Both the position numbers and the translations under genes were made by a program. From Rhabditophanes sp. KR3021 (lineage: Eukaryota; Nematoda; Chromadorea; Rhabditida; Alloionematidae), in contig CAUJLY010000003.1 in NCBI GenBank assembly GCA_963281155.1, forward strand, positions 4,340,001 to 4,404,000: a DNA stretch of 64,000 bases. Direction: 5' to 3'. Numbering within the stretch: the stretch's first letter is position 1; every line of letters starts with the position of its first letter. Below the pieces are notes generated by a model. That model saw only the letters and a program-made list of their open reading frames with translations, was not told the origin of the DNA and searched no databases. Of the stretch, positions 1,270 through 61,256 are shown piece after piece.

Positions 1270-4200
1270 ATGGCAAATAATTCAAAACGGTATACTGAAG
1301 TTGTCCCTACATCACACGGGACAGGCATATTCCAATTTGATAAAGATGGGCAGACTGCTCTTCATTTGGCTCAGATCAATGCTCATGCAGAAACTAGTAG
1401 TTTAATTATGCCAAATTATCAAGCTACTCAGGAATTAATAGGTGTACTAAGGAAAAATCTGTTAGATGCAGCTGAAACAGGAACACTGTATGATAAAGAC
1501 ATATTTTTTGCCAAGATCTCGTCAATCTCGGAAAGAAAAGTGTTGAACGGAGAATCTCAAAGCGATGAAGGTGTGTTTATGAAGGCTGTGAAGCATGGGC
1601 ATTTAGAGTTTGCTAGAGATTTACTTATATTTCACGACCATTCTTTGCAAGATGCCGAAACAGGAGATACAGCTTTGCACTATGCCGTAAGAACTGGGGA
1701 AAGGGATGTCATTGAACTCGTCTTAGATAACTTTTGTTTCCTGATGTCTTGTAAAAACAAATTAGGTCAAACGCCGATTCACATAGCCTCTACTAATGGG
1801 TATACTGAAGTTGTTTCAGCATTAATTTCACACGGGGCAGACATATTTCAATTTGATAAAGACGGGCATACTGCTCTTCATTTGGCTCAGATCAATGCTC
1901 ATACGGAAACTAGTAATTTAATTATATCAAATTATCAAGCTACTCAGGAGTTAATAGGTGTATTGAGGAAAAATTTGTTAGATGCGGCTGAAACAGGAAC
2001 ATTACAAGATAAAGACATATTTTTTGCCAAAATTTCCTCCATTTTGGAATCCAAAGTTTTAAATGGAGAAAATAATGACGATGAAGGAGTGTTTATGAAG
2101 TCTGTAAAACACGGAAACTTAGATTTTGCTAGAGATTTACTTCGATTTCACAATCATTCTTTACAAGAGGCAAGTACTGGAGATACTGCTTTGCATTTTG
2201 CCGTCAGAACAGGAGAAAAGGACATAATCAAACTGGTTTTAGATAACTTTTGTTTCCTAATGTCTTGCAAAAACAAATTAGGCCAATTACCAATTCATGT
2301 AGCATGTTTTGATGGGGATTCGGAAGTTATAAAGACACTGCTGTACTTCGAATATCCCAAAGAACATTTTGATGAAATAGAGAATTTTGGTAACAATTAT
2401 ACCTACAGATTTATTTGCGATTTAAATGAAATGGATAAAGATTTGCGCACACCACTGTTTTTAGCTGTTCAAGGGCAGAATATTTTGACTGTACATACTT
2501 TATTAGAATTCAAACTACCCTTAATAGATGCCAAAAAAGAAACAACGGAGGCTTGCCCCTTTCATTTAGATGTATATGATTCAAATGGCAAGACATCCCT
2601 TATGATGACTTGCTCTTTCAGTAACGAACCCATTCTGCGCTTATTATTACAAGCTGGGGCTAACCCAAACCTGCCAATTGCTTTAACGGATGATGATATT
2701 TTGAATATGTCTTCCTCTACTGAAATGGTCCGATGTATTGGTAGTGGTGCATTGATTGAAGCATGCCGAACAAAAAACTTGACTTTTGTAAAAATATTGC
2801 TTCACTACGGAGCTTACGATCAGTAAGTTTATTGAAATAATACAAATTAAAAGTACAATTATTGATATGGACGCCTGTACCGTAGAGTTCTTTCAAAGCT
2901 TCACTCCCTTTTAACCCAGTACTCCATCTCTTTAAAACACTTTTCAATATAGTTGTCATATCCTTGCTTCTTGAAAAGGAGATTCTAATGAGATGAAGAT
3001 TATTTTCTAGCCAATATTAATTTTCCACCAATAATGAAATCAAATTTTTATGATCTAAAACATACTAACACGACTCAAAAACGGCGCTTAAAGTAGATCA
3101 ATTTAAGATTAAAAAACTCATCATTTTTCAATGTTTAATCATTATCGTGTTTTTATAGTGAAAATAAAGCTTTGTCGTTGGCTGTTACCAATGAATGTGA
3201 AGATATTTCATCACTACTACTATCTAAACTGTCTTTTCCCGACAATGAACATAGTGTCAATAAAAAAATCTTTCAACCTACCAGTCATATTCCTCCTGCT
3301 GTTTTATTAAACTGGAAGAATTGCAATTTGTCAAATTTTCCCGCAGAATTTATCTTAGCTTCAGTTACAAGAATTTCCCCGAAAATTAAAACTACTCGTG
3401 CTGCTTATGCCAGTTTAACAAAATTAGATTTATCAGAAAATTTGTTGACATCAGTTCCGAGTGTAACATTGCTTCTGCCATCATTAAAATTCCTAAACTT
3501 ATCCAACAATCGTATCACCAGCTTTGAAAAAATAGACTCATTTCAGACTACTGTATTATCGCTTGAAACATTAATCCTAACCAAAAATGAACTAGAGGAA
3601 TTACCAGGTCAAGTATTTAGTTCAATCCATTTTCCTGTCCTTAAATCTCTTAATGCCAGCCATAATAAGATAAAATTGCTCCCTTGCAATATTTGGTCGG
3701 CTACGACATTGAAAGATTTAAACTTATCTAACAATGAAATTGATACTTTACCATCAACAGTTGTTTTGTTTGATCGTCATGCTAGGCCAGGAATTAGTTC
3801 GCCTAAAAAAACAGCCAAGCAAATAATTAAAAATATGCTAATCCCTACTACAATGGATGCTAGGCAAACGTCGCCAGCGGAAGAGGCTACAGAAGTTAAT
3901 GAAAGGGAAGTTGAATTAAAGAGAGTAAATTTGTGGCAAAATAACTTAAGCTTACTAAAGTTTGATTTGGAGGAAGAAGAAGTTGCAGTAGATAAAAGTG
4001 AATTAAATTGCTTGAGCTCTTTGAACTTGGCGGGGAATAAATTCAAGGAAATGCCAATTAACTTAAGTTGCGTTTGCCCTAGACTAGTCAAATTAGATAT
4101 TTCCAATAATCAACTGACATCCATTGGGCCAATAGAATGTTTACCTCACCGTTTAAGACACTTGGATGTGTCAAAAAACAATTTAGCTAAAGCTTTTGAC

Positions 4201-7200
4201 CCATTGACTCGTCACCATATGAATTGTTTTGCCACAAACGGAATGAGTATAAATAATAACAGTTCACGAAATCCAAGGTCACGTTCAAAATCAGTGGCTC
4301 GAAATAGAAGATCTCTTTCCGTTATACGAAATCTACCAGAAACTATTTCTAAAACTAACCAACCTGACATTTGTATTCATAAAGAACACAAGCAATTAGA
4401 CTGCCTCAAAAGCTTGAATATTTCGTACAATCAAATTAAAAATATTCCAATATTTCTACCCTCTTTATGCATTTTATCAACTCCAGAAAACAAAAATTTG
4501 GTGAAATCGTCTTTAATATTTCCAAATATTTCTACAGTTGAAATTGCGGCCAACTTTTTAGATCATGTTCCCAGTGCAATCTCTAATTTGCAATTACTAA
4601 CTTCTCTTAATTTGCAATCAAATACTTTGCTTACAAAGTTGCCTGCAGAATTGGGAATGCTAGACAAACTTTGGTCATTACAGGTAAAACAACATTTTAT
4701 AAGAAGGGACAATTTAAAAATAGATGAACAAACAATTTAAAATGATTAGATGATAAGTTTGAGGTAAATAGAATTTTAGCCAAGATGCTAACTATTTTGA
4801 ATGCATTGACAGCGTGAGTAAATAAATTTTAGGGATAGTACAATTCCCGTGTTGACAGTTTGTTACCTGCGCCTTAAACTTGTGAGAGAAGATATACTCC
4901 AGATTCTTAGCGACTTCCTTTAATGGTATTGGGAGCTAGTACATAACAATATTGTCGACACCTACTAGGCTCATTCTTAACCCTTTCCAATCAAATATGC
5001 GTTTCTTTCAATTCAGCATCAAGCGGTTGTTTAACAAAAGGTTCGGTTCCAGTAGCTTCGTATGAAAATTGCGTATCACTACGGTCAAACTGATCCTGTG
5101 TCCTTTTCCCAACTTGACGGACTGGCTTTGTTTTGTAGCAAACTTTTTCTCCATTTAGTTTAGGCAAACCCAGAATGAGCAATCTAAGTAATGAGATAAT
5201 TAGTAACAAAGGAGGTAATATTAAGATATATGAGACTCATTTGCATGTGACGCCAAAATAATGATGACAAAAGTGAATTCGTGGTCAACGAAAAAGATTA
5301 ATTAAACATTATAGTTTCGAAAAAATAAATTAGGTATACCGTTAATTCTAAAATATACTAAAACATTAGTTTAATATAAAGACTAATATATCTCATCCAT
5401 ACAGTTGAAAGATTGCCCCATCAAAGATTATACTATAAAGGCACTGCTCGAAGCTCCAAATTACAAGACAGTCGACATATTAGCTCATTTAAGATCAAAG
5501 TTAGAAGATTCTCGCCTGCATAATCATTTAAAATTAATAATCTTGGGTGACCAGGAATCAGGAAAAACAAGTTTATTAAATAACCTAATGGGCGAAGGAT
5601 CGATATTGAGTAGGAGATTATCTCCTAATGCTCTGCAATGTTACGAATGGGGAATGGAACCTTTTAGGAAGTCCAAAACAGAACAATCATTCGGACCAAT
5701 CATCTTTAGATCATGGGACTTGCCAGGCCAAAAAGAATTATCCTCGATTCATCAGTATCTGCTAACTAGAAGGGCTATTTACATAGTTTCATGGAATCTG
5801 AATGATCAGGAAGCCCATGCGTTTACACAAATTCAAGATTGGCTAGTTAAAATTCAGGCGAGAGCTCCAAATTGTCCAGTAATTATTGTGGGAACACATT
5901 TTGATGACATTTTAGCTAATTTGGGCAAATTCCCACCTAACTATATTGAATACTTGGAAGCTAAGATTAAGGAACGTTTTATTAATATATCCGATTCAGA
6001 GAAAAAGGGATTACCCAAGGTTTTTGACATTTTCTTTGTTTCAAATAAAACAAAGTTCAACATAAAAAGTTTGTTCAATATTTTATATAAAGCTGCTTAT
6101 GAATTGAAAATAGCTGGTGGAAAGATAAAGGCATTGGAACAAAAAATCCCGTCTACTTTCATTGCCTTCGAAAGAATTATCTTGAAAATTAGAGATACTT
6201 TAATAAACAGTGGGCGGGAGCCATTGATGTTGTTAAGTGATTTGAAAATATTTGCCAATGAAAAAATGATTGAGAAATATGGCAAATCGTTTAGAAACGA
6301 TAATGAATTCGAGAATGCGTGCAAGTTTTTGCACGAAACCGGAACATTGATTAATTTTGACGACGTTTCCTTAAGAGAGTACGTATTTTTGGATGTTCAG
6401 TGGTTGTTTGATGTTTTGTCAAAAATTATTACAATGAAAGAAGTTATTGCAAACTATGGAATCATGGAGATCTCCGTTTTTATGAAATTGACGGCTAAAC
6501 TATGTAATCAACTGGCTCAGCAAAGAAAATCAGGTGAAAAAATTGGAAGCAGATTAGTTGGAGCCCTTGTAGACCTTTTTCACAAATTTGAACTAGGTTT
6601 GACTTTTCAATCAAAGTACATTTTATTGCCATCTTTATTACCCGGAGAATACGAGAAGGTGTAAGTTACAAATAAATATAGCGTCAATATAAGTAAATTA
6701 AATTAATCTAAACACTCCCATTAAAATCCATGATGGAGACCTCAACTTTAATGTATCTCCCAATGGTTCATGCTCCTATTCCAACTGATTATGCGGCACT
6801 GATAATTGATGAATCCTACAGCACTAGTATTTTGGGCGGTGATGTTCTTACACGAATTAATCCTTTGCTAATAATTTTCATAACAAGCTTTGGACGCTTT
6901 TTCATAATTATTCCATGAGAACTTGTCTGGTAATTAGGATAATCTGTCCATTGTTCCGAACAAGCGGTACTGAACAATCAAGGTTTAACTAAGGAAAGTT
7001 TATTATTTAGCCACTTATCAATTTACTTACTTTTATTGAATCATATATGCCTTTTCAAAATTAGGAAAGATCGACTCCCACCAAAATTGACTCGTCCTAC
7101 AATCTCTTTCTATCCTTTTGTGAAGAATATCCTGATAGAGCTTTACTGAATATTTACCCCAGTACTGTTTCATTACATATCCAACGCACTATTAATTACA

Positions 7201-10200
7201 ATTCATCTCCTAAGATTTATAACCGGGAATTATCAACCAATTAGATAATAAATACAATGTTAATATTAACTTATGGTATTGTCATTAGGATCAGACATAT
7301 TAATTTTGATTAATTAACAAAAGTAGTGCTAATTATCTTCCTTTTAACAAACAGTTGTTTAGAGTGACTATTTAAAAAATTAAGTAAAAAGACTTTTTGA
7401 AAATATTTTGTGACACGTTTTTTAATGGTTTTTGTTATCAATTTAGGGCGGGTTACCCTGGCACAGACGTCAAACTGAAGGTCAAATTTCAATCTTGGGA
7501 CATTACTAGATCACTGAAATTAATAAATGAAAGTCAAATGATTCTAGAATCGCATAATATGACTAGTTCAATCATATCACCTAGATTCAAATCTATTGTT
7601 TCCAAATTGTCTTTAGATGATGCCAAGGATGCTTTGATGAGTTCGTTTAGAAAAAGAGATTCAGAGTCTCCGTCAAAGCCATCATTACCAGTACTTGATG
7701 AAGGATATGTCCTTAATTCCATGGAAGATATTCAAACATTTCAAATGTCTGTAAAAAAGATGAATAATCTTCGTATAACTAGATTATTTGCTGTCCAATA
7801 CGTTCCTTATGGCTTTTGGCCTCGTTTGATAACGAGAATCTTAGATGATTTTAGGATTTCATCTATAATCGGAACTTTATTTCATACCAACAAAACCGGG
7901 ATCTCTCTCCAAACTCTGAAGATGATAGCTGATAGCAAATTTTCAAATGCGGAATGGACATTATGGAAAACAGGTAAAATATTAGAAATAGATAACAAAC
8001 AATTTAAAAAAAGATTAGATAGTTATTTTGAGATGGAAATGAATTTTATTCAAGATGTCGATTAATTTGCAAGTATTGGCAGATTCGAGTTGGTGGATTT
8101 ACGAGATAGTACACTTTCTGTGATCATAATTCGGTAATTAGTAATAATTAGTAACTAAGCTAAAGAAATAATATCAAGATACAGATTAATTACGGGCATA
8201 TTTGAACGAGTTGTCAAATGAATAATGAAGATTCATACATTTAAAATATTATTCTTTTGAAAGATAAAACTGATATAATATTCGTCTAAACTTTACTCAA
8301 ACATTCATTTAATTTGATATAGAAATTAATATGGTTTCATTTAACAGGAATTGAAAGCAACGCATTTTCTGAAAACATCTTTTGTTTAAAGCAATTTCTG
8401 GCTATGGCTGATATAAAAGACGTTCCTTATGATCAACTAACCTTAATGTCCAAAGATGAAACTGATACCTGGCGTCCTTTTATTATGAATGATTATTTCA
8501 TGATTGAACTTAGAATTCCATACCTTCAATTTACGGTAAATGTAAATGACAGAATAGGAACTTTTGAAACTAATCCAGTAGTCGCCGCTCAGTTGACAGC
8601 TATCGTATCTAATATTATTGACACTTTATTAGAAGACTGGTATCCAGCATTAGGTATTTGCCTTATTTAGATGTATTTTATTAACTTATTTTATTTTAGG
8701 TTTGTTTAAAACAACCTCAAAATGAGTGATTTTTATCAATTTAAAAAATAATCAAATCAGTCGGTCTTGGAGGTTGTCTCAATGAAACATGTTCATCTAG
8801 AATGTCTTGTCGAATCAGCTGAGCAACTTCGTCTTTTTTCTGAAAACATTTGATATACAATTTTATAAGATGCCTTCTTGAATCAGAATTAGTGTTTACA
8901 TCTCTAGTGTAGTCTATTAGGATGTCCTCAATGTTTTGCGCCATTTTCTTTAACGCAACCATTCCTTTGCCACCACGAAAGACTCTGTTCATTGCTTCTT
9001 CTTTAGAATCGAATAAAGGTTTTCATTCGACTGCTCTGTCGTATTGACACATGTGGTTAGTCATTCGTTTAGTAATGATAGTACTTTCATCGGTAGTATA
9101 TAGAATATGTTTCTTAGCATCTTCAACAGCATGCTTATCATTCTGTTTTCAAAACCATTTGTCTCTCCAATGTAATGGGTTTTTTATTCCTAACGCAATA
9201 TCTGGTGCGATTCGTTTCAGAACCTTCTATGAAAGTTAAAATATATTTCTACATATTAACCAACTTATTAAAAAGCAATATTTTACATTAATATTAATAT
9301 GTGTCTGCTTTAGGAACAAGATTTGTTCATACTTCTGAGGGAAGGTATTTGATTAATAGGTTGGTGCCTTGTACCAGATGTTTAATGGATATTAAAAATC
9401 AACCTAAATCAAAGCAGAGCCAAGACGATTCCGATATTCATACAGTCAAGCAAATGCCGAGCAAGAGTACTACTATGTATAATTTACCTTTGCTTTCAAG
9501 TGAATCATCTCCAAAATTGTATGCTTTTACTATTGAAGAATGTATATTGAAATTCCATGACTCGGTAATCATGAAATGTCCACAACATAATATGGTTGAT
9601 GTAAGACAAGTTTCACCAGATTCAGCTTTCTTAGATATTTCAAAAGACTTGATTATAAACTGTGAAAATTTGCGCAAATCGAAGCTTATTGGACGGGGAT
9701 CATTCGGCTTTGTCTTTTTTGGGTCGGTGAAACTAAAGAATGATTTTATACCCGAAGCTGCTTTAAAAATGCTTGAGCCTGTTGATCCTGGCAATAATTC
9801 AGACGAAGCTACTATAAATACCTACAAAATATCCCATCAAATGTGGCAAAGAGATCCACTTCAGCATTGTTGTAAAGCGTATTGCACCATCCGACAAGAA
9901 CTATCGGTTCTATTCCATTTAAAACATAAGAATATCACAACATTGCTGGGGATTTGTGTTAGGCCATTAACTCTAGTTATTGAATTAGCACCAATGGGTT
10001 CACTGGATTCATTGCTAAGCACGTACAGGAAAAATGGAGTGCATTTAAAACTAAGTGTGATCCAGGAGACGGTCGTACAAATATCAAAAGCCCTCGAATA
10101 CCTGCATTTGAATCACATCATATACAAGGATTTGAAATCTGAAAATGTCTTAGTCTGGCAGTTTCCATATCCTTTTACGACATTGAAAGAAGTTGCATTG

Positions 10201-12270
10201 AAATTAGGTGACTATGGAATATCAAGATGTTCGAATGGCTCTGGGAAATTAAAAGGCTTTGGGGGGACGGAATGTTTTATGGCACCAGAGATGATTCGTT
10301 ACAATGGTGAACAAGAATATAATTCGAAAATAGACTGCTTTTCCTTCGGGATGTTTATTTATGAGTTGTTATCTTTGAGATTACCCTTTGAGGGCCAAGA
10401 ACAATTTAAAGAACTGATTTTAGAAGGCGGGAGACCTCAACTATTTGAAAATGATCTATTGAATCCAAGCAATTATCTAGATCTAATGGTCACCTGTTGG
10501 AATCACTCTTCTGAAGATCGCCCAACCTCGAGTGAAATTGTTTCAATCGCAACTGCCCCAGAATTTAGATTTATTTTGGATGTCGTTGTTATTCCCGAGA
10601 CTTCATTGGAGATATTCACTAATTCCATATCATTCCTAAAAACTGAACAAACTTCTACTGCTTCCTATGACAATATAATAGATGAAATGTTTGGAAACAT
10701 TTGGATTAACTCTTCAAACTCAAGTATCTATTCCATTAAATATAATGCTACTGGGTTTTTAGAATGCAAGAATTTTGCTTTAATCAAAACTTCTGCTAAA
10801 GTAACGTCAATGTGTCATATATTAGGAGCAGTATGGGTGGCAGACTCAAATGGAATAGTCAAAATATTCTCCGAGTCAAACTTCGTTGAAATTTGTTCTT
10901 TCCCAGTAAATTTGTTAGTTAAGAAGCCTATACAGAATCGTAGTATCGTTCAGCAAATGGTTGCTATTCCTGAAAACAAGGACCTAATTTTGTTTGTTCT
11001 TCAGTATACTATTATGATTGTATCGGCAAAAGATGGTTTGTCACAACCTGTAGCGATTTCGCAAATCCAATTGACCAATTCATTATTCTCTGTAATAATA
11101 CCAACTTTTTCAAACGACAAGAAACAAATTTGGACTGGCCATGATTCAGGTCTGCTTTATTGTCATTTTTTGAATGAAAACAATCAGTTCACATTTTCAT
11201 CTTCTTTATCTCACAGTGATATGAGTGGAAAAGATGTTGGTACAATAGTAAGAATGTATCATTCCACATTATCAGAGGAAACCTGTGTTTGGACAAATGC
11301 GGAAAATGAGCCAACTGTCTTTTTATGGTCAGGCAAGTAAATTCATTAAATATAAAATTAAAATAAGAAATTAGATTAGCTTAAAATTGCATCTAAAAAA
11401 AGATCTACGCATTCACCACTCATTTTCGGCTACATGCGATGGACTACTTCAAATGAGAGGTTGACAGAATCCAAGCTGCCATCTTAAAGCGTTATTGAGG
11501 TGCACGTAATACTCTCTGCAGCTTCTTTTTACTGATACTTATTCTTTAATGCCCTTATCATCGAATGTCTTATAATAAGTCACAATATAGACTCTCGATG
11601 AGACATTTAAACTTAAAAAATCAGCTGAGATGTTCAAACTTAGAAATCAAAAAGACATTTAAATTCAATTATTAATCTAATATATATTGCAGAAGGAAAA
11701 ATGAAGAAATTTGTAGATTGCAAAAAGATATTACCATCCTCCGAATCATTATCATCCATCGATTTGGAAATAAATGAAAAAGCTCACATCACGAGCATAG
11801 CTTTACTGGAGCAAGTTTGCTACATTTCACAACTGTTTGTAGGAACGAACAAAGGTGTTCTGATTATATTCGATGCATTTAAATTATCACCACTATACGC
11901 ATTAAGACCCTATTTAGAAGAAATTTCATTTATTTTAACGTTGCCATACCATGAGACAATATCTGCTACAGGTTCCAAATCATCGTCTGTTGAAAATTGT
12001 CCTTCAAGTTTGTCTTCAGACACAAGGCAATCTTCCAAATACAGCAGGTCATCAAATCACACCACTCTAAGTATGGAAAGTTCCAAATTTTATGATAATT
12101 TACCAGAAGCAAACTGCATAATAACACTGGGTAAAGGTTACCGTCCATTGATAGAAAGATTCGTCGATGTCAAACAAAAGCTGAATACTAATGAACTTCA
12201 AAATTCAAGTCTTATTTTATGGCGAACAGATGATTATTCTGTAGACACAATTAAACAATTAAACAATTAA
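1270..12270 (+). CDS. LRRK1: LRRK1-like Roco protein kinase (ANK-LRR-ROC-COR-kinase-WD40)
   Basis: Exons by frame continuity: 1270-2822, 3159-4683, 5405-6660, 7447-7973, 8348-8653, 9314-11332, 11693-12270. They join to exactly 2588 codons, close to the usual 2000-2500 residues of animal LRRKs. Order: ankyrin-type repeats (about 1-500), leucine-rich repeats (about 560-1020), ROC GTPase with P-loop GDQESGKTS near 1073, switch DLPGQ and specificity motif THFD, then COR, kinase from about 1845 (GRGSFGFVFFG, catalytic YKDLKSENVL, DYGISR, APEM), and a C-terminal beta-propeller-like region. DYG in place of DFG is the LRRK hallmark; the ISR context and the LRR-ANK start resemble LRRK1 more than LRRK2. 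The catalytic-loop arginine (HRD/YRD) is lysine here. All six introns are long and element-filled, and the last is GC-AG. LRRKs phosphorylate Rab GTPases and act in vesicle traffic. The exact start is less certain than the rest. Confidence 0.9.
1287..2313 (+). repeat. Tandem duplication of about 515 bp inside LRRK exon 1
   Basis: Bases about 1287-1796 and 1798-2313 are two diverged copies of one block. Each begins near TATACTGAAGTTGT and carries the protein segments FQFDKDG, TALHLAQINAH, NYQATQELIGVLRKNLLDAAETGTL and NFCFLMSCKNKLGQ. The first copy starts with a damaged repeat edge (TEVVPTSHGTG against TEVVSALISHGAD), so the duplication joined imperfectly close to the current N-terminus. Confidence 0.9.
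2823..3158 (-). mobile_element. LRRK intron 1, short family A element (Vsr-like nuclease end)
   Basis: This 336-nt intron is nearly identical over its first ~210 bases to EXOSC2 intron 2, starting at the GTAAG donor. On the minus strand it encodes the C-terminal part of the family A protein: a segment LHLIRISFSRSKDM followed by an ILKSVLKRWSTGLKG helix. The LIRI strand followed by a helix is typical of Vsr/PD-(D/E)XK nucleases. The donor-proximal TTTATT is a polyadenylation signal AATAAA for the antisense gene. The upstream domains and promoter are deleted, which accounts for the small size. Confidence 0.85.
4684..5404. mobile_element. LRRK intron 2, family D repeat
   Basis: A 721-nt GT-AG intron. 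Its first ~170 bases and a block near 5195-5220 align with LRRK intron 4: shared strings include AACAAACAATTTAAAA, GATAGTACA and ATAATTAGTAAC. A minus-strand open stretch (4991-5209, with LPKLNGEKVCYKTKPVRQVG) looks coding-like but matches nothing I recognise. A mobile element inserted as, or inside, the intron is the likely explanation. Confidence 0.6.
6661..7446 (-). mobile_element. LRRK intron 3, family B antisense element
   Basis: A 786-nt GT-AG intron related to neurabin intron 2 and SLC6 intron 1. Read on the minus strand, an ATG near 7291 begins MSDPNDNT as in neurabin intron 2. Further on it encodes VKLYQDILHKRIERDCR, matching [18 protein letters not shown] there, and near 6710-6760 IKVEVSIMDFNGSV, matching IKVGVCIMDLNGSI in SLC6 intron 1. 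Stops and frame breaks show that the copy is dead. A hairpin-forming motif lies at 7348-7378. Confidence 0.75.
7974..8347. mobile_element. LRRK intron 4, shortened family D repeat
   Basis: A 374-nt GT-AG intron aligning with LRRK intron 2 from near the donor (AAATAGAT, AACAAACAATTTAAAA, AAGATG blocks), then jumping to the later shared block ATAATTAGTAAC. The frame runs on past the donor for 30 codons (NKQFKKRLDSYFEMEMNF) with a degraded counterpart in intron 2. It appears to be an internally deleted copy of the same element. Confidence 0.6.
8654..9313 (-). mobile_element. LRRK intron 5, family C antisense element
   Basis: A 660-nt GT-AG intron with a minus-strand coding-like stretch from about 9240 to 8741. 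Recognisable pieces are KRMTNHMCQYDRAVE, LFDSKEEAMNRVF and an ~80-residue C-terminus ending PPRPTDLIIF. A homologous but more decayed copy lies downstream of LRRK at 12361-12830 (LFDSKKKAINKVF). A single stop separates the two visible parts. The protein family is not recognised. Confidence 0.7.
11333..11692. other. LRRK intron 6, GC-AG intron of 360 nt
   Basis: Frame continuity (TGG TCA G joined to AAGGAAAAATG) needs a donor at CAG|GCAAGT, giving a GC-AG intron ending ATTGCAG. The interior shows no clear coding sequence; it is longer than the short class, so it may hold an eroded element. Confidence 0.65.
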
Positions 12271-32960: not shown

Positions 32961-33967
<1,007 letters not shown>

Positions 33968-43673: not shown

Positions 43674-46600
43674 ATGATATCTTCAACCCCAACTCCCGAA
43701 TTGCGCTCAAATGATGTTCGATCCAGATTTTCCAATTCAAAGGCTTTGTTCGAACATTTAGAAAGGTCCGACAGGGCTGATATTCCTTCCTTTTACTCGC
43801 CTAGACCACAACGTCACATTAATTTGCATTTAAATTCAATGAATTCAGTTGACTCATCAACTTCCTCTCCACCTTCTATAAAAGCTTTCCCAGACATGGT
43901 GACAGAAACAAGCGCATCACCAGCTACCACAAATATCAACACAGTTACATCTCCCGTTGCCTCACTAGCAGCTAAATTTAACAATCCAGAGGTTGCTATT
44001 TTTAAGAATAATATTGTACCACCACCAGTTCCTCCTAAGCCATCCGTCGTTGATGTTTCTAATTTAAACAATAATAATACACACCACCAAGATTCCCCTT
44101 ACTATTCACCTACCTCGCCTATGTCTCAAGTTGAAGAAAATTTTAACAAAATGGCTTCTGACTTGGATAAAATGAATCATTCCTACTCCGGAACATCTGT
44201 TAGTGAAAAATGTGCCGCCTTCGAACCTTACTGGCGTGATCCTTCTTATTACAAAAAAAGATATGGATTTGAGAATGGGGAAGAGGCAAAGAATGGTGGT
44301 GTCTTTGATAGAAAAGCAAACAACCATTCAAGTGGATCTTCCACTGCTTCTTCTGAAAGTGAGGAAAGTGTCCCCTCCGAACCTATATCATCCAGTCAAA
44401 GAGTATCACCTACAGATAAAGGAGCCACTTTTGCATTGGTTGGATCCAGATTCGAACAAACAAGATCTATGTATGACAATAAACAAGACCAACAAGTCAA
44501 TAATGACTATGATAAGGGTGCATATGCAGGTACTATTGAAAGCACTAGAAATGATTGCATGCTGGTTAGTTTGTTTAATATAAAATTATGCAAAATCTCA
44601 TTTTGAGTAAAAAATTATAAAGATTGCAGGTGGACTATATAGCGAGAGTGTAATAGGATCTTTATCTCGAGATGACTATTATAAGTAATGTTATTCTTTG
44701 CCCGCACCTTCATAGGACTTGGTGATTGGATCACTTTAATAATGCTTCTCTAGACACTTTTAAAAATGGGCATATTCTTAATCAAAGGACTTCTAAGATT
44801 TTTTAAATAACTCTTCGGGTAGGCAATGTCTCCTCTTTTAGACTCATCAAACCAATTTGTGACGCCCAAAATAATAAAAGGTTGTTAATAGAAAATAGAA
44901 ACAAAAAATTCCCTCTAATTAGATCTTTATTGCCGAACACGTACTTCTTTATAATGTTGATGCAGATAAGGGGTTTGCGAGTAAGTTTCCTGTTATAAAA
45001 TGCTGCTTTAAACTTCTCAGCTTTCATAGGTGTTCCATCCGCATATTTGAGCATAGAAAGAGATGTGTTTTGGCAAGCAGGCAATTGCTTTTTTACAGCA
45101 TAAAAATCACTCCTAATCTGTATCTTTTCTTCGACAATTGCTTCAAATCTAGCTGATCATTGACGTTCGGCAAAACAATCTTCATTGGGTTCCATGTAAT
45201 CTTCCAAGCTGTCGTGTAACTCTTCAATCTCATCTTCATCCGAATCAACATTGTATACTGGCCCGACGATACTTTTTCTCTGACATTTTCCAAAAGAGAT
45301 AGAACCTTCTTGCTTTCGTCATCCGAGATAACAATCACTCCTATTCTTGGTTTTTTAATCCGAGAAGAACGAGTATTTTGAGATGATTCCTTTCTTTCTG
45401 ACATGATGAAGCGCCAAAAAATGAAAATGATTTAATGGTATTTTATACCCATTATATACTAAAATATGGTGGTGGACACCTCTAAATTTAGCTATGGGAT
45501 CCTTTAAAATGATCAAATTACTTTTATTTGGCGGTAATTGCTATTTAAACTTTGGTGTAAATCATCATTTATTTATCATGTCTATTAATTATGGTTTTAT
45601 TTAAGATCCGTGGTCTTAGTCCTGAACCTGAATCAGAACTTGATTCTTCCAAGAGAGTCAAATTTTCCTCAAATCCGATACAAGTTTATCCTACACACAC
45701 AGCAGAAGATTATGGTAAGTAACAAAAAAGTAAAATAAGTTTAAGCGGTGGCATTTGTTTGTTTAGTTTAAAAAATATTTGTTTATTATGACCTCACCAT
45801 AGGTGATATGGGGTTTGGCAAGAGACTTAGTGAACGACATCAAGATAGATAGTTTATTATCAAATGAGGGGGTTATATATACTAATAGAACATAAATATG
45901 AATATAATGATATATAGATAATATCTATATGCAGATTATGTTACAGAAGCATAGACACCTCTTTCTGAATCAGGAAAGGTTAATTGCCACAAATACTGGC
46001 GCTTTCTGCAATCTCTCTGTTTTTTTGCAGGATCAAGCACATCGGGATAGAGCTTTACCCTTGTTCCTCCAACTTCAATTTTGCTAGATATCCAACGTAC
46101 TATTAATGCACAATTCATCTCATAACTTCTATAACCGTTTTCAATTGTAAATCAAGTGCGTGGATCCTAAATAGATATTAAATATAACTTAAATATTAAC
46201 TTACGTGTTGTCATTAGGATCAGACATAATAATTGAGATAGTCAAAATTAGGGTTGCCGTATATCCACTAGAAGAAAATAACGAAGTTAAAGTGCCAATT
46301 TTATTATATCACAGTAAAGTAGAACGAGGCTTAGAGTCTTTGACAAAGTAGCCACTTTATCTATAAAGGATGAAGCGGTTAAAGCATGGGATAATTGGGT
46401 AAAATAATCGGGGAATAAGTAATGATAATATGATGACGTGGTCTGTAAAAGGTGGCGACCACTCATGAGTGAACATAAATTTAGAATGACTCAATTACTC
46501 AACTATGATGAAAATGTAATATGTAAATTTATCGTCAAATAGCTCTAGAGCGAAAAGGTAGAGGGGTAAACATCAGATTAAATATCGTTTATCTTGTTAG

Positions 46601-49586
46601 ATTAGTTAATATTATCCTTTCAAAAGCAACAGTCAAAAATGATGACTGTTTAAAATTAATTAACTTTTGGAAAGATTAAGAAAAACGTTTTATCATAAGT
46701 CTCTTTAAACTACATTTATTTTATTTTGTATCTAGATCGTAGAAATGATGATGTTGATCCTGTGAGTGCTTGTGCTGAGTATGAATTAGAAAGAAGACTC
46801 GAAAAGATGGAACTTTTTGATGTACAGTTAGAAAAAGGTCCCGAAGGTCTAGGGGTTTCAATTATTGGGATGGGCGTAGGCGCGGATTCAGGGCTAGAGA
46901 AGTTAGGTATTTTTGTTAAAAATATAACATCTGGCGGAGCTGTACACAAAAATGGAGAAATTCGTGTTTGTGATCAAATTGTTAGCGTGGACGGAATTTC
47001 CTTGGTAGGAGTAAGCCAATTATTTGCTGCCGAGACCTTAAGATCTACCAAAAAGAATGTTGTGTTTACCATTGGAAGGGAACATAATTTAGAAGATTCC
47101 GAGGTAGCTCAATTGATCCAACAAAGTTTAGAACAAGATAGAAGTAGAAATCCTATTATGCCGCCACAATCTATTAACCATAACACACCTACACAAATTA
47201 AGAGCAATAATGCTTACAATCCTCCACCTCCAGTGCCATCGTCAGCTGTTAACAATTCCCATTCCGATAATTCTTCAATTTTCTCAAAGAATTTCATGGA
47301 TGACACTGAGATCAAAGCACGCATTTCTACACTCGAAGTTGAATTAAACGATTCTCAAAAAAGAACCGAAAAGATTCAAGACGTTCTTGAAAGCTCTAGA
47401 AGCCATTGTAAAATACTCGTGAGTTAAATGAAAACCAAAAATATTGGGTTATCTATAGTCTGTTGATTAATACTTTACTACCGAATCTAGTATTTCTTTA
47501 AATATAATAGGAAGAATTAAGCTTTTTATTAAAATTATATAGAAATCAAGATATGATTATTGATATTGCAAGCCTTTGTCATAAAACTTGGCCAAGGTCT
47601 TGTCTTCTCCAAGCCCAAACTCCATCTTTGTAGAACCTCTTTCAAGATTGTCTTCATATCAACAGCTCTTGAATGAGAGATTCTAACTAAGTGGAGTCCA
47701 TTGTCTTCACAATACTTATTTTAATTCTATCATAACGTTGTTGTCTTTCAAATTTAGCTTTTCCATTTTGACGGCCCAATGGTTTGAAATGGTACCACCA
47801 TCTATTTCAAGGAGCAAGACTTTCTTAATTGCGATAGAACGAGTTTGAGTCAAATCCTTGTTATAAAAAGCTTTCTCAAATTGAGCATATCAAATGATTT
47901 CCTTTGGTCAGCAGGTAGGTGCTTCCTGGTGGAATTGAAATCATCTATAATTTGCTTCTTCTCTTCAAAAGGATATTTGTGCGGTAATTTCCCCGAAACT
48001 AGTGGTCATTGACGTTCAACTAGCATTTCTTCAGCAGGTTTCATGTAACCTTCCAATTTATCACGTTCCCCCTGCTTCTCGTCCGAATCAACGTCCTTTG
48101 TTTCTTCTTTGTTGACTCCTAAAACAGATTATTTGACAATGTTCTTTTCAATAACCTTTTCATGCTCCTCATCATCGTTTGAAACTTCTATGTCTTCTAT
48201 TCTTGTCTTTCTGATAAAGAAGATTGCTTAATTTGAGATACCCTTTTCTTTTAGTCGTAACAGAAAAGGACTTAATTGTATTTTCATACCTCTCATATAC
48301 TAAAATATGGTGGTGAACACACTCCTCCAATTTCACTATAGGTTCTTTTAAAATGATCAATTTACTTTCATTTACCAGGAATTTAAAATCGCGCTAAAAG
48401 GGGGGTGTTAAAAACTCATAATTTAGTTATGTTTTGTATAATAAGTATGGCGTTATTTAGGAGCAAAAGTATGACCAAGCAAGAAACTTGTTGGAAAATT
48501 ATCAAAACAGGGAAAAGGAATTACTTGAGAGAGAAGAAATTCACATTGAACAACTTCGTTCAAAAGACAATCAGTATTCAAAGTTGATAGATCAACTAAA
48601 AAATAGAATAGATGCTTTGGAAAAGAAAGAAGCAACCTTGCCACAGCAACCTATTTACTATTCGGGAGACTTTTCTTCTTTATTAAGGAAAAAAGATTCA
48701 GCTGAAAGTAAAGGCAAGGAGTCAAGTATGGGAAAAGAGTCAAGTATTTCATCAGCTAATACTACCTTGGAAAGGACCCCACTAAATCAACAGCCACGTG
48801 TTTATCCTCGTACCAATGCCAATGGAATGACAAGTTCCATGTACTCAAACTCAGGCCATGCCTTCCTTCTTCAACAAAACACTGCCCCTCAGATGAGCCA
48901 ATCTGTATATGCGCCAAATCAAGACAAATCCTCAGACAATGGATCCGTTATTGGAGATTCGAAAAAGCCAAATGATTCTAAGTATATGTCTCAAAACTCG
49001 CTACTTTCTCCTCTTCCTCCCAGAACTTCAGGAAATTCGCCCCAACCTCGCATATCAGAACCAGCTTCACCAGCTACTTCAACGAGATTTTTACAAAATC
49101 AAAGAAGAATTTTGTTTCCCCTGAGAAAGAGATTTGCTATGCACAGTACGTTTGTTTTTTAATTTATTACTTATTTTTTTAGGCGAATGTGAATTCTGGA
49201 GACCATCTTCCGTCGAGCAAGGCCTTCAAGTTTTGTCCTGGAACGCAGACGACATTTGCCAACTATTAATTCAAATCGGTCTCGACAAGTATATTCCCGA
49301 ATTTACAATTAACGGGGTAAATGGGCCAAAATTTCTGGAATTGGATGGCTCAAAATTAAAGAACATCGGAGTCAGTAATCATTCAGATAGAGCCATCATC
49401 AAGAAAAAAATTAAGTCGATTAAGAATAAAATTGAAAAGGAAAGAAAAACACTAGAAAAAATGTCTCGCCAAAGAGCTGTAGCAATAAGTAATGGAGCAT
49501 CGAATCCACCTCAAATTACGGATGTCTTAAGCCCACCACCGCCATCTTCAAACAGATCCGTATCTCCGGGATCAACGGCTGTCTAA
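43674..49586 (+). CDS. Neurabin-type actin-binding PP1 scaffold
   Basis: Exons 43674-44564, 45606-45714, 46736-47418, 48461-49145 and 49183-49586 join to 924 codons. Neurabins bind F-actin and target protein phosphatase 1 at synapses and cell junctions. Order: N-terminal actin-binding-like region ([15 protein letters not shown]), low-complexity linker with PPPVPPKP, the PP1 docking motif KRVKFS in exon 2 (about residue 315) followed by [13 protein letters not shown] and [17 protein letters not shown], which are strongly conserved in the family. Next is the PDZ domain ([14 protein letters not shown] then [18 protein letters not shown]), coiled coil in exon 4, and a C-terminal SAM domain ([19 protein letters not shown]). 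The SAM domain makes it neurabin-1-like rather than spinophilin-like. Introns 1-3 are ~1 kb elements; intron 4 is a plain 37 nt. Confidence 0.94.
44565..45605 (-). mobile_element. Neurabin intron 1, family A element
   Basis: A 1041-nt GT-AG intron. Minus strand from the promoter block (45437-45530): ATG at 45404, [20 protein letters not shown], an acidic stretch ([20 protein letters not shown]), then [19 protein letters not shown] and [21 protein letters not shown]. The last parts match neurabin intron 3 and EXOSC2 intron 2. Frame breaks occur near 45235 and 45150. The zinc-ribbon and nuclease end, expected at 44600-44880, is not clearly readable. Confidence 0.75.
45437..45530 (-). promoter_or_regulatory. 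Family A antisense promoter block, neurabin intron 1
   Basis: Minus strand: TGATCATTTTAAAGG, a TAAATTTAGAGGTGTCCACC block, then TTTTAGTATATAATGGG with a TATA box about 60 bp ahead of the antisense ATG at 45404. Confidence 0.65.
45715..46735 (-). mobile_element. Neurabin intron 2, family B element with its own intron
   Basis: A 1021-nt GT-AG intron. On the minus strand an ATG at about 46229 begins MSDPNDNT and runs into GTAAGTTAATAT, a donor; an acceptor-like ATCTATTTAG follows about 40 nt on, then [18 protein letters not shown] and [19 protein letters not shown]. The embedded antisense gene therefore has its own short intron. A TTATTATCAA/AATAAA-like polyadenylation signal lies near 45860. 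The hairpin motif is at 46627-46652. Confidence 0.75.
47419..48460 (-). mobile_element. Neurabin intron 3, family A element with nuclease core
   Basis: A 1042-nt GT-AG intron. Minus strand: promoter block at 48278-48380, acidic region ([19 protein letters not shown]), [32 protein letters not shown], then [38 protein letters not shown] and [21 protein letters not shown], then D..K, then N-x-LHLVRI is the Vsr/EDxHD nuclease order, more complete here than in EXOSC2 intron 2. Several frameshifts are present. Confidence 0.8.
48278..48380 (-). promoter_or_regulatory. Family A antisense promoter block, neurabin intron 3
   Basis: Minus strand: TTGATCATTTTAAAAG, GTGTGTTCACCACCAT and TTTTAGTATATGAGAGG in the same order and spacing as in neurabin intron 1 and EXOSC2 intron 2. 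Confidence 0.65.
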
Positions 49587-53701: not shown

Positions 53702-55667
53702 TTAAAGTTCAATATGAGCAGATTCGTCATCTTCGGTCTTTTCTTCTTCAGTAGCAGTTTCGTCTTTTCCGTTGGTTTCAAAGAACTTGATAAAGGCCTC
53801 AAGAGTACGGTCTCCAGAGTAGTCTACGGCTTCAGTTGATCCAGCTGGGTAATATTTGATGGTTGGGAATGAGTTTACCTTTAATCCTTCGACTTCATTG
53901 AGGGTAGCGTCCATTTTGGCGATAACGATTGATTCATCATCCTTGAAGTGCTCAGCGAGCTTCTCCCAAACTGGAACGAGTGATTTACAGTGACCGCACC
54001 ATGGTGCGTAAAGCTTGATTAAAGATCTAGTCTTGGGGTCGTGGGCAACTTCGTTGTAGTTCTTTCCAACAAGGACCTGAAAGCATTTAAACAGATGTTA
54101 TATTGTTCGTTTAAATTTTAATGTAGCTATGTACCAAAGGTTTCCTTTTAAAACTACATTTTTTGAATTTTAATACTAATTACTTTCAACTTCGCTGTCG
54201 TCTTAAAAACAGTGATTTGTTTGGCAGAAAGGAGTCAAGAACGGGCAAGATTAAGAACTATCCTGCAGAAACTCTTCATCTCAAGCTTCCGGTACTACTA
54301 AAAATTAGCTGAAAATTTGGAATTCAAGCATTAGATCACCAATTATGATCATGGCAAATACCCCATTCCGGATGTCTACCTTCTGAATTGTGCGAATGCA
54401 TGTGCAGTCGCTGACATCTTGGTTGACAAGATGCTCAAACTGAATGTAAGTGACGAATAATGTACTAATATTTAGATTTCCCCGTTTAACTAGCTTAGTT
54501 TTAATAGATATTTTGTATGAATAACGATACCTTGACTGGGTTTGAGTTCCAATTTTCTGGTACTTCTTCGGACATAAGATGGGCTTTCAATTCCTTGGCC
54601 AAGTACTTCTTAGTGAAGGCGGAGATGTTTTCGGTGGTGATTTCTTGGAAGTCTGGTTTGAATTTGGTCATATCTTCTTCCAATGAGATCAATCTAATGG
54701 CTGGGAGTTCTTCTGATTTAAGTCCGAAGAATTCCATGATTCTGGCGTTGTCTTCAACATCGGTGTTGATAAAGACGAACAAGAGTTTTCCCTTGAATTC
54801 TTTAGCGGCGGCTTGGAATTGTCCGTAGATCTTCTCGTATTCCTCAGATTCTTTGGAGATGAACAAAAGATTGTGAGATTTGATTTCTCCTCCGAAGATG
54901 ATTGAGGCGGTTTCTTGGGTGAATTCGTTGACAAGAGCGAGTCTGTTGGCTTGGATGAATTGCTTGATTTCTGAGGTCTCGAAAGTTCCTTCGAAGTCGT
55001 TTCTGAGTTCATCGAATTTCTTGAAGAGGGTGAAAGAGTTGGCTGCAACCTTCAATTCAGAGGCAACTTCGGCGTCGGAGGTGATGGCGAATGGAACATC
55101 ATCCATGGTGGCGGCAGCTTCGAGGAAAGCCTTGGCTTCGTCAGAGTCTTCGGCCTTGAAGTATCCAATAACGACGACTTCGGCGCTATCCTTGAATTCG
55201 CTAGCCTCGTCAGTAGTCTTCAATGGTTTGGCGGCTGGTCCAGTCTTCTTCTTCAACCAGGCAACGATGGATGCAACGTCTCTTCCTCCAGTGTATTCGA
55301 CAACCTTTCCGTAGCGGAAGAATTTGATGGTTGGGTATCCTTTTACTTCATATTTGGTTGAAATTTCGGAATGAACAGTTGAATCTAAAGTGGCGATTTT
55401 AAGTGTAGATCCTTCCTCTTTTAATTGAGTGGCGGCCTTGGCGAGATTTGGTAAAAGTGTTTTGCAATGTCCGCACCTGAAACGAATTAATAATTGTATT
55501 AAGACAGTCGCAACTTACCATGGAGCGAAGAAAGTGGCTAAAGTAAGATCGTCAGTTCCGGTATGTTCTTCAAAGTTATCAGCGGTTAATTCAATAACAT
55601 CTTCATTAGTTTCATGTGCAGAAGCTGAGACAACCAATAAGGCTAATACAAATAATTTGGCAAGCAT
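53702..55667 (-). CDS. Protein disulfide isomerase (PDIA1-type)
   Basis: Exons 55519-55667, 54531-55476 and 53702-54076 join to 490 codons, the usual length. PDI forms and rearranges disulfides in the ER lumen and is also the beta subunit of prolyl 4-hydroxylase in animals. It has a signal peptide (MLAKLFVLALLVVSASA), domain a with active site WCGHCK split by intron 1, redox-inactive b and b' domains, domain a' with APWCGHCKS, cis-proline segments GYPTIKFF and SFPTIKYY, an acidic C-terminal tail, and a terminal HIEL, an ER retention signal variant of KDEL. Intron 1 is a plain 42 nt; intron 2 is 454 nt with an antisense remnant. The promoter carries two ER-stress elements. Confidence 0.95.
54077..54530 (+). 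mobile_element. PDI intron 2 with antisense coding remnant
   Basis: A 454-nt intron. On the plus strand, antisense to PDI, a broken frame reads DLFGRKESRTGKIKNYPAET and LHLKLPVLLKI, then ITNYDHGKYPIPDVYLLNCA and ADILVDKMLKLN. This is coding-like, but I cannot place it in families A-D or the GIY-YIG family. It fits the pattern of antisense genes in long introns. Confidence 0.45.
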
Positions 55668-58749: not shown

Positions 58750-61256
58750 TTAAATAAAATCTGAACCTGAGCCTGCAACACTTTTCCTCAGAGCGGAATA
58801 TTTGTCGATTCCTGTTTGTAGATTTTTTTCGTGGATTTTATCATGCTCCGACAAATATTCATTTCTCTTTAAAGACTCAATTTCAAGTCGGAAATTATGC
58901 AACCGTTCCTGAAGGGCTCTGTTCTTTTCATTGATTTCATTTCTGTAATTGATAAAAAAATTTATTACTTATTATGCACGATTCAAGGTTATCAAAAAAT
59001 GACCTATTTACATGAATGTTTTTAAGACGCAAATTACCTTGACGTTTCTAATTGAGATCGAAGCAATTGTATGTCTCCGTTTAAGACAGAAATCGAACTG
59101 GATGCAGTAATGTTGCGATCATTATTCGATGAAGAGGAATTTGAGTGTGTGGGGATTAAGACATGATTGTTATTATTGTTGTTATTAATAGTTGAGTTAG
59201 TTGAATTGATACTTTGCTGCTTTGGAATATGGACGGCAGAATGGCGCAAAGATGCTTTTTGAAAAGTTGGCATGTCAAAGGTATATTGCTTGCCAAACTC
59301 CGATAAATATATTTGACTTCTATATTGTGGCTTACTTGCAACAGATTGCTCGTACTGTTTCGTCATAAGATCAACTTCACTCATACCGTTCTGGCCAAAC
59401 TTCATGGTCTTGAATGATATATCGGACTGTTGTATATCTTTTTGTAACTTGACATACCGCTCCGATATATCTTCGTAATCTGCTTTTATCTGATCTCTTT
59501 CATTCTCCGCAATCTGACGTTGCAATTTGGCCTCTTCTAATTGTGCTTTTTCGTTCGCCTGTCGTTGCCTATGCTCATTGGCTTGAATTTTCATTTGCTG
59601 GACTTCGAGTACGTCAGGCTGACGACGCCGTAAATATAGATTATGTGTACCACTGCAAAGGTCAAGGACAGATTGATTAACTGAGGAGTGTTGAGCCTTA
59701 AATTTAATCTTTGATTTATCCATGATTTTAATAATGAATAATTTATTTTCAAAAGAAATGCTCCGTATTTCAGAAAACATGAAGAATGGTCGCGGTGTGA
59801 TTTTGTTGGAATTTTTGTAAATACCAATCCCTTGCGCAGAAACACCCAGCAACAAGTCAGTTTCTTTTTGATTGCAAATAGGATAATATTGAATTCCAAA
59901 CATTTCTAATTCCTGGGCAATTTTCAAATACTCAATTTCGGCTTCTTCGGCGGACATACCAGTAATTATCACCCACCACTTCCTTATCCGTTCTTCCCAC
60001 ATTTCAGGTGACATCTCAAATTGGTTTATAACAGATTGGGGGAGCAATTTCCCCAGATCAATCGGCGTTGCATCATTGCACGGACCATACATTTGTTGAC
60101 AAGCATATGAAGCCAGTAAGACGGAAGCTTCTGGTGAACAGTACAATTCCATATTGAGAATGGATTGTTTGATTTGCAGGTAAAAAAGATGCCTCGTTAC
60201 ATCTTGAATCAATTCTTCCTCCACATTTTCAGGATAAAATTTGACCAAAAAATAAAAGTGGTACCTGCAAATGTGAGAAATTCAATAATAAATCGTATTT
60301 AATGTACATAAAAGACTTGGACTACAACGATGTCGATCTATTGAATATTTACAAGTTGCCAAGAATTGTGGTTCTGTTAAAAAATGTAAGCACTCTGTAT
60401 GTGTGCTTTTGGATATTGGAGAAGGTGTTAATTACAAGCCCCTATCTTATGAAGACTTTGTAAGTCATTTTTTAAGTCGGTGTCAGTGGTGATTTGAAAG
60501 AAAGAGTCAACGCTTGAGGCAAAAAATTGAAACAAAGTATTAAAGAAAATCCCACTAAACACCAAGGAAGGTAAATGCAACCCTATTTTGCTGAAGAATG
60601 AAAAAGGTATTGTCATTTATCTTGACGACTTCACATTAATGAGGTTTTGAGGATGGAATACTCGATCATTTTTAAGTTGCAAAAGTGGCTGACTAACTAT
60701 GGTGCTCCTGGACAGTCAAACGAGGTTGTGTAAATAAAACATCCATTGATCGTCCTCAAATTGGCCAAAATAGTTCTACAAAAGTAACTCCAAGCGTCCA
60801 CGTCTATTGCCTTCCAATTTTATGTCTCTTATAAATTTTCATTAAGAGTGTCCCCAATAAAAGTATTTTTTAATGTTTTGGCTATTTTGTAACTTTGAAC
60901 AGCATTTACTTACCCGTATTGATCTTCATTTGATCCATCATGTTTTTGAGTTTGATAATTAAGACATTGCTTGGGAATATCATGTTTGACTATTTTATGG
61001 TCGTTTTGCAACCAACAGAGCTTGTCTTTTTTATCTGTGAACTGTAAACCAAAATAGTAGTGCTCTCGGATGCCCATTATACGACAAACAGCTTGAAACA
61101 ACTCATTTCCCTTCCAATCAGGCTGTAAACACTTTATTAAGAAAATGGCATCGTGTATAAAATTACCCCAATCAAAATCTTTTCCAGATCTGCATTCATG
61201 GCCGTCACCTTGCAATGAATCGGCTTGGAAGCCTGTCCAATTATTTGTGAAAACAT
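58750..61256 (-). CDS. ERM/merlin family FERM-domain membrane-cytoskeleton linker
   Basis: Exons 61167-61256, 60914-61122, 59038-60264 and 58750-58942 join to 573 codons, typical of ezrin/moesin/merlin. It links cortical actin to membrane proteins. FERM marks: NELFQAVCRIMGIREHYYFG, LQFTDKKDKLCWLQNDHKI, VKFYPENVEEELIQDVTRHL, MEEL-type run MWEERI, EYLKIAQELEMFGI, LLGVSAQGIGIY and SEIRSISF. A charged coiled-coil helix follows (EVQQMKIQANEHRQRQANEK onward), then a serine/asparagine-rich linker. The C-terminus reads GIDKYSALRKS but ends GSGSDFI, without the usual RIDEFE- actin-binding end, so F-actin binding may be altered. Intron 2 holds an antisense GIY-YIG remnant. Confidence 0.93.
60265..60913 (+). 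mobile_element. ERM intron 2 with antisense GIY-YIG remnant
   Basis: A 649-nt GT-AG intron. On the plus strand, antisense to the host: KNCGSVKKCKHSVCVLLDIG, EGVNYKPLSYEDF, then about 60640-60770 RMEYSIIFKLQKWLTNYGAP, GQSNEVV and IKHPLIVLKLAKI. VLLDI, the EYSII glutamate segment, the LTN-x-x-x-x-GQSN motif and the KHP tail match ANKLE1-like GIY-YIG nucleases and the SLC6 intron 2 copy. The middle part is deleted. Confidence 0.72.

Follow-up and report, generated by a model that had tools for sequence, protein, structure and literature searches.

Probable mobile spliceosomal introns with antisense nuclease genes in the nematode Rhabditophanes sp. KR3021

The origin of new spliceosomal introns is an old open question. 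Introners are families of similar introns that occupy many gene positions and move with their splice sites; the main text of Gozashti et al. (2022, PMC9860276) does not contain the words endonuclease, nematod or Rhabditophanes. Shintrons, described from mirusviruses (PMC12768974, 2025), are introns with nuclease genes, and the words antisense, orientation and recursive are absent from the main text of that paper. Fungal stwintrons are consecutive introns excised in two steps, and sequence-similar stwintrons are reported to have spread in Hypoxylaceae. A survey of nematode introns (PMC9169325) reports, in its available portion, no intron gains in Strongyloididae, and Rhabditophanes is not named there. 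The present analysis concerns the long introns, several of them bearing nuclease genes, of a 64,000-nucleotide (nt) stretch of DNA (the window) from Rhabditophanes sp. KR3021 (taxid 114890), a free-living nematode of the family Alloionematidae, superfamily Strongyloidoidea, together with their relatives in the same genome.

We propose that these are, most probably, spliceosomal introns made mobile by the nuclease that they themselves carry. As far as sequence can tell, the proposal is carried by the intron position and precise joins of several copies, by two nuclease families (named GIY-YIG and EDxHD), by their antisense placement and by AATAAA signals on the nuclease strand. It is further supported by a mini-intron followed by an AG/GT site, purifying selection, movement of whole units, and an exon target shared by a subset of EDxHD introns, A1. 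Slashes mark splice or insertion points.

The genome searched comprises 44.8 Mb in six contigs (labelled C), the window being C3:4340001-4404000. Genes were called with a coding-potential (codon) model trained on 30 hand-picked exons of the same window, hence not independent of it, and the joins of long introns were for this reason checked by homology. The finder called seven short introns of 37-47 nt plus one of 95 nt and, after three had been set by hand (7974-8347, 11333-11692 and 19440-20144), 15 long introns of 336-1042 nt; a sixteenth at 23347-24768 is probable, its first exon being putative. Finder calls at 757-1265, 30154-30496 and 32192-33160 were dropped as introns because they were read as joins of separate genes. 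Ordinary introns of Rhabditophanes measure 37-49 nt, judged by the finder and 23 plain short introns.

On the evidence of frame and homology, the long introns are real. They lie within protein-coding genes, and nearly all introns placed have GT-AG borders with T-rich acceptors. Alignment with human RRP4 crosses the 1012-nt intron (GGVYH/GEIGD), alignment of SLC6 with GlyT1 crosses the 862- and 566-nt introns, and that of neurabin with PDB 9gsu crosses the 1021-nt intron. All six LRRK joins are spanned by four Strongyloididae orthologues, with no gap over the 50 residues displayed. The LRRK protein published for Rhabditophanes agrees letter for letter at five of the six predicted joins and stops at the sixth. 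Support for the joins at 19440, 44565 and 47419 comes mainly from the open spliced frame. The long introns and their parts are as follows.

2823..3158, forward strand: LRRK intron 1, 336 nt, EDxHD family A1, join confirmed with LRRK proteins; a deleted copy with an antisense C-terminal nuclease fragment (4.9e-14); exon target TACGGAGCTTACGATCA/TGAA.
4684..5404, forward strand: LRRK intron 2, 721 nt, partial similarity to 7974-8347, no protein recognised.
6661..7446, forward strand: LRRK intron 3, 786 nt, a member of family B, which has 23 DNA matches in the genome; no protein recognised.
7974..8347, forward strand: LRRK intron 4, 374 nt, partial similarity to 4684-5404.
8654..9313, forward strand: LRRK intron 5, 660 nt, antisense open reading frame (ORF) of no recognised kind; TTTTAG/G 46 nt past the donor, like GIY-YIG elements.
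11333..11692, forward strand: LRRK intron 6, 360 nt, likely GC-AG donor; the published protein stops here.
19440..20144, forward strand: SLC6 intron, about 705 nt, left border placed manually (19370 according to the finder), partial similarity to family B.
20531..21392, forward strand: SLC6 intron of 862 nt, a GIY-YIG element comprising a mini-intron, a recursive-type site and an antisense nuclease (homology 9e-56); R1 match of 72.4 bits; join via GlyT1.
20531..20576, forward strand: mini-intron, 46 nt, GTAACA...TTTTAG, at the 5' end of this element, GTAATT directly after.
20749..21255, reverse strand: GIY-YIG nuclease ORF, 169 amino acids (aa), antisense to the host SLC6 gene.
22394..22959, forward strand: SLC6 intron, 566 nt, join via GlyT1, no nuclease recognised.
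23347..24768, forward strand: probable long intron with a degenerate antisense GIY-YIG gene (3e-37; 35.8 bits); TTTTAG/GTAAT site near 23489.
28494..29505, forward strand: RRP4 intron, 1012 nt, EDxHD family A1, degenerate antisense nuclease (2.5e-14); exon target TACGGTGGTGTTTATCA/TGGT.
44565..45605, forward strand: neurabin intron, 1041 nt, EDxHD family, antisense remnant (3e-9), open spliced frame.
45715..46735, forward strand: neurabin intron, 1021 nt, part family B, holding a dispersed repeat of about 165 nt; join via PDB 9gsu.
47419..48460, forward strand: neurabin intron, 1042 nt, EDxHD family, degenerate antisense nuclease (7.6e-18), open spliced frame.
54077..54530, reverse strand: intron of a PDI gene, 454 nt, no nuclease recognised.
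60265..60913, reverse strand: intron of an ERM/merlin-like gene, 649 nt, degenerate GIY-YIG gene antisense to the host (5.2e-12).

Antisense nuclease homology at E<1e-8 is present in seven of the 16 long window introns (four EDxHD, three GIY-YIG); none was found on their sense strand at this threshold, and none in the eight short window introns. A first-pass annotation of the window had placed it in an animal nucleus, which the nematode host bears out. Its 15 long introns and one of 95 nt stand after hand correction, while its 11 short introns shrink to seven. Antisense genes or remnants, which it saw in twelve long introns and in no short one, are recovered in seven of the long introns, the remainder not being confirmed, and the short introns are indeed free of them. 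The same seven agree with its count of at least six introns with homing-endonuclease hallmarks of two folds.

The carried enzymes belong to kinds known to occur in phage parasites or among the DNA-repair proteins of animals. A zinc-finger, Vsr-like EDxHD homing endonuclease family has 35 matches genome-wide and phage homologues down to 5e-11. These phage relatives carry the annotation EDxHD, and the catalytic-domain motif is present. Profile matches include PHROG 559 at 4e-24 and PHROG 9084, "homing endonuclease", at 4e-18; the zinc-finger region resembles PF14311 below its cut-off, and the nearest predicted fold may be that of I-Bth0305I / Vsr (PDB 3r3p, 1cw0). The other family, LEM-3-like GIY-YIG, has 151 matches genome-wide. 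Its match list coincides with 7 of the 16 genome places above the cut-off of PF22945 (LEM-3_GIY-YIG) and with 4 of the 14 places of PF01541 (GIY-YIG); the window copy stays below the Pfam GIY-YIG cut-off, at 21 versus 22.6 bits. The name LEM-3/ANKLE1, which we take to apply to the animal relatives, goes beyond the Pfam title. The element proteins themselves are short, have a C2H2-like finger in front, and are intron-borne in many copies.

Structure and database searches gave few further relatives. A fold search with the GIY-YIG model (predicted local distance difference test, pLDDT, 54) had no GIY-YIG structure among the 50 matches listed, and only zinc fingers among the sensible ones. No SL1 match was obtained either; as the control genomes lack that family too, this absence carries no information. 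No match for either nuclease was returned by a PDB sequence search, and viral contigs scanned with single proteins of both nucleases held no relatives. Among 5.8 billion proteins, the GIY-YIG query found one, another Rhabditophanes copy, that of locus L010 (loci are numbered with L); the EDxHD query found two, a Rhabditophanes copy (L069) and a distant environmental protein. Both copies are in UniRef under Rhabditophanes sp. KR3021: P0001 lies letter for letter inside the L010 ORF, and P0002 contains the L069 ORF (342 aa). P0001 scores 26.9 bits against PF22945 (cut-off 27), other copies being above the cut-off.

The ratio of nonsynonymous to synonymous substitution rates (dN/dS) in copy pairs indicates purifying selection on the nuclease frames of both families, the synonymous rate exceeding 2 in several pairs. 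Two intact EDxHD copies, L069 and L071, are 83% identical at the amino acid level in a mosaic manner: codons 92-241 are near-identical and both ends have diverged, a pattern that would resemble the state after gene conversion. Beside both copies, on the opposite strand, stands a PDZ-like coding sequence, presumably Dlg-like.

Orientation was surveyed at 57 loci (37 GIY-YIG and 20 EDxHD) with the nuclease region masked and flanks of at most 1.5 kb. The GIY-YIG loci consist of 30 from the match list and seven of eight from the PF01541 search outside it (L004 was dropped as equal to L012; L001, one of the seven, may be an ordinary host gene). Nine EDxHD loci were picked among the 35 matches for open frame or position, and 11 by DNA similarity to the RRP4 intron, their orientation being taken from that match. 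All 24 nucleases inside called introns are antisense to the host gene: 13 of 13 EDxHD and 11 of 11 GIY-YIG, the latter including the window copy and two PF01541 loci (L005, L006). The nearest called exon is on the opposite strand at 26 of 28 GIY-YIG and 13 of 14 EDxHD loci.

The same asymmetry is seen in polyadenylation (poly(A)) signals. Between nuclease match and splice site, AATAAA occurs on the nuclease strand at 23 of 28 GIY-YIG loci and on the host strand at 2 of 28, base composition predicting about 7 and about 13 sites, respectively; for 23 of the 25 sites the distance to the splice site is 22-57 nt. In a set of 31 long introns, whether or not a nuclease was recognised, 70 such signals are on the nuclease-type strand and 26 on the host strand (47 and 34 expected). 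Since a poly(A) signal in sense orientation would truncate host transcripts, its occurrence on the nuclease strand fits antisense placement.

The GIY-YIG unit has a characteristic architecture. At 28 of 30 loci, the motif TTTYAG/G(G)TA stands 116-315 nt before the nuclease match in host sense, usually 39-48 nt behind the GT that follows the exon, and so ends a mini-intron. The motif is found at 0 of 30 loci on the other side of the match and at 0 of 30 on the other strand, and in 12 of 1500 shuffled sequences. Within the 28 loci having the motif, to which the comparison was confined, the last 40 nt of the mini-intron are more alike than those of the 23 plain short introns (0/5000 permutations). 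Copies L036 and L037, inserted in different exons, align over 1402 columns with 97.9% identity. This identity begins inside the mini-intron, a few bases at most from the 5' splice site, and the preceding 60 nt differ. Identity that starts there while the flank differs makes the mini-intron part of the mobile unit, and by this comparison the whole GIY-YIG unit moves, mini-intron included. The idea that elements had entered short introns already present, at their 3' ends, was rejected, the mini-intron belonging to the mobile unit.

Recursive splice sites take the form of an AG with a GT immediately behind it. Such a site is located behind a usable 5' intron at 28 of the 30 GIY-YIG loci. Ordinary introns being 37-49 nt long, removal of the unit in two steps is plausible, and because the final AG of the mini-intron is directly followed by GTA, such recursive splicing is probable.

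Insertion targets were compared for six close EDxHD introns, A1 (LRRK, RRP4, L040, L045, L049, L057), found by intron sequence alone, in six host genes not formally shown to be unrelated. On average, 12.5 of 23 exon-flank positions agree, versus 6.5±0.68 in random sets of six drawn from these plus 31 other introns (0/5000); the L057 acceptor was shifted manually to the aligned TTTGTAG, and the left border of L029, a control, is misplaced. Seventeen bases before the insertion, TACGG is present in LRRK, RRP4 and L045, TATGG in L049 and L057, and GATGG in L040. The last exon bases are approximately TATCA, and the right side is TGR, in most of the six. The insertions in LRRK and RRP4 share one codon phase, in which the other A1 introns can also be read by eye. 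Judging from these flanks, A1 has a common exon target, loosely TAYGG, about seven bases, TATCA/TGR. Target specificity is weak for the GIY-YIG family, whose insertions follow (C)AG/G: at 23 of 30 loci, with donors chosen by eye, G is at -1 in 22, A at -2 in 17 and C at -3 in 15, and in 18 the frame is open in a phase that splits a glycine codon.

From this pattern we infer nuclease expression and cleavage, repair-mediated copying and, for one family, two-step splicing. The nuclease gene would be transcribed against the direction of the host gene and would use a poly(A) signal of its own. Its product would cut a preferred exon sequence (TAYGG...TATCA/TGR for A1; little beyond CAG/G, often splitting a glycine codon, for GIY-YIG), and break repair would copy the intron in from an existing copy. 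The spliceosome would then remove it from host RNA, so that the host protein would be unharmed. In the GIY-YIG unit, the mini-intron, of a size normally spliced here, would leave first and the nuclease-bearing remainder second. Mobile spliceosomal introns with nuclease cargo had been suggested by the first-pass annotation, together with outcomes that would speak against them. None of the three came about: the long introns fall into families with copies elsewhere in the genome, their nucleases are not randomly oriented (24 of 24 in called introns antisense), and profile searches matched PHROG 559, PHROG 9084, PF22945 and PF01541. Its poly(A) argument for antisense placement likewise gains support from the strand counts.

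Several observations weigh against mobility driven by the carried nuclease. A recognisable nuclease is missing from 9 of the 16 long window introns, stop codons interrupt many of the listed GIY-YIG copies, and dN/dS is 0.77 and 0.64 in two EDxHD pairs. A clear target is found in only six EDxHD copies, and L036 and L037 lie only 32 kb apart on one contig (C2). Splicing is supported by frame, homology and one published protein. An intron was called at only 11 of 37 GIY-YIG and 13 of 20 EDxHD loci; without the seven PF01541-only loci, 9 of 30 GIY-YIG nucleases are in introns, 9 of them antisense, and the nearest exon is opposite in 22 of 24. The nearest exon is on the nuclease strand at L018, L023 and, when masked, L040, which unmasked lies inside a called intron of the expected strand. 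Finally, exon end and intron end match at 2.82 of 7 positions over 28 introns (chance 2.26±0.19, p 0.004; L015 aligned by eye at its repeat), with no constant length. The best likeness is in L015 (CCGGTTCAG twice) and the introns at 8654, 20531 and 4684, and a short target duplication, as in transposons, is possible.

This last, weak sign, clearest in the four introns just named, is what ordinary DNA-transposon introners would leave, with a transposase encoded elsewhere and the nuclease incidental or captured. About 5% of the species surveyed have introners, according to the available text of PMC9860276; the intron at 45715 does contain a dispersed repeat of about 165 nt. Such an origin is distinctly unlikely: no terminal inverted repeats above shuffles were found in any of the nine elements tested, two unrelated nuclease families under purifying selection share the same antisense place, and the A1 exon target is sequence-specific. 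The nuclease genes could instead be passengers that invaded existing, immobile introns, an idea suggested by mini-introns of the size of ordinary short ones. It is unlikely, as L036 and L037 become identical near the 5' splice site, within the mini-intron, in different exons, mini-introns resemble one another beyond the 23 plain short introns, and the A1 target sits in exons rather than in an intron.

Antisense host genes nested in introns, LEM-3-type and another, might also have spread by ordinary gene duplication. Strong LEM-3-type GIY-YIG matches do exist in the genome (C2:2186518, 167 bits), and two copies are in UniRef as proteins (P0001, P0002). Yet copies have mini-intron and splice signals in common and not the flanking exons, many are broken, and the EDxHD relatives are in phages, which together make this explanation very improbable. 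That nuclear genes here contain self-splicing introns of group I or II is extremely unlikely. The nuclease types are typical of such introns, as the available part of PMC12768974 states, but GT-AG borders and T-rich acceptors mark nearly all introns placed and no Rfam match was obtained in the window at gathering thresholds. Neither a group I/II origin nor elements with terminal inverted repeats are supported.

Nuclease introns are unevenly distributed. The largest contig, C6 (11.2 Mb, gene-rich), holds 40 of 130 kinase matches among the matches listed, and 2 of 150 GIY-YIG matches among those listed, 0 of 35 EDxHD matches and 0 of 31 five-prime motifs. The deficit of nuclease matches has p 4e-16 by length and 5e-13 versus kinases, contig labels having been typed by hand from the 150 GIY-YIG matches listed. 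Some matches do fall on C6, namely 3 of the 45 to intron 45715 and 5 of the 23 to the LEM-3 profile. As a guess, C6 might be the sex (X) chromosome, where homing in a one-X sex or stage would lack a template. A broader reading, which we favour with reserve, is that this animal nucleus houses self-propagating spliceosomal introns in which two unrelated nuclease lineages, phage-type and LEM-3-type, each made a homing element creating new introns in exons at its own cut site. The recursive site of one lineage would let a genome of 40-nt introns tolerate kilobase cargo, and the near absence on one gene-rich contig would record where or when germ-line homing can occur.

Other repeats were noticed as well. 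The dispersed repeat of about 165 nt at 45784-45951, in neurabin intron 45715-46735, has more than 20 genome matches at 78-90% identity. Pieces like this intron at C1:2496083 and C6:6767 stand about 2 kb from strong LEM-3-type GIY-YIG matches (C1:2498294, C6:4280), and the two perhaps form a larger element. In the window, a tandem duplication of about 520 nt (1289-2328, 81% identical) lies in the LRRK ankyrin-repeat exon, an inverted repeat pair of about 149 nt (13416-13562 and 61988-62136, 77% identical) outside called genes, and short tandem repeats between genes at 52635-52737 (41/21-nt units) and 53239-53324 (43-nt unit).

If correctly read, these introns of one nematode appear to make new introns by site-specific DNA cutting, which would be a natural gene-drive-like element in an animal, and recursive splicing might be how cargo stays hidden where spliced introns measure 40 nt. 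With copies that are recent, enzymes that are intact and target sites that can be read, intron gain could be put to a direct test. A mechanism proposed for viruses in 2025 would thereby be carried over to a cellular genome. The first-pass annotation had held such a situation to be unknown for spliceosomal introns; mirusviruses provide a precedent (PMC12768974, as far as its text was available), and no case of a nuclease-bearing spliceosomal intron in a cellular nucleus was found in the open-licence literature searched. Judged by titles and the beginnings of abstracts, that literature holds no paper on Rhabditophanes with intron or endonuclease as its subject.

Among known systems, the EDxHD enzymes come near I-Bth0305I and Vsr (PDB 3r3p, 1cw0) through phage sequence relatives annotated EDxHD, and their fold may be similar; here they are in spliceosomal introns of a nematode nucleus. 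The GIY-YIG proteins resemble LEM-3/ANKLE1-type animal nucleases by PF22945 and differ in being short, fingered, many-copy and intron-borne. Excision of consecutive introns in two steps would be shared with stwintrons; in Rhabditophanes the mini-intron directly adjoins a long nuclease-bearing intron. As in introners, sequence-similar introns occupy many different gene positions and move with their splice sites. Introners derive from transposable elements, according to the available text of PMC9860276, whereas the Rhabditophanes unit has its own nuclease and no terminal inverted repeats were found in it. Closest are the shintrons, which, in the accessible part of PMC12768974, are likewise GT-AG introns with GIY-YIG, Vsr-like or PD-(D/E)XK genes and without group I/II signature (here in the window), and show a gene preference. 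Shintrons belong to viral genomes, and the introns described here to animal chromosomes, where they recur at different genes of one genome, with the nuclease antisense in every called case, a mini-intron with recursive-type site in the GIY-YIG family and a common nucleotide target in A1. By their sequence features, the Rhabditophanes introns are shintrons that are chromosomal, multi-copy and antisense, one family having a built-in mini-intron.

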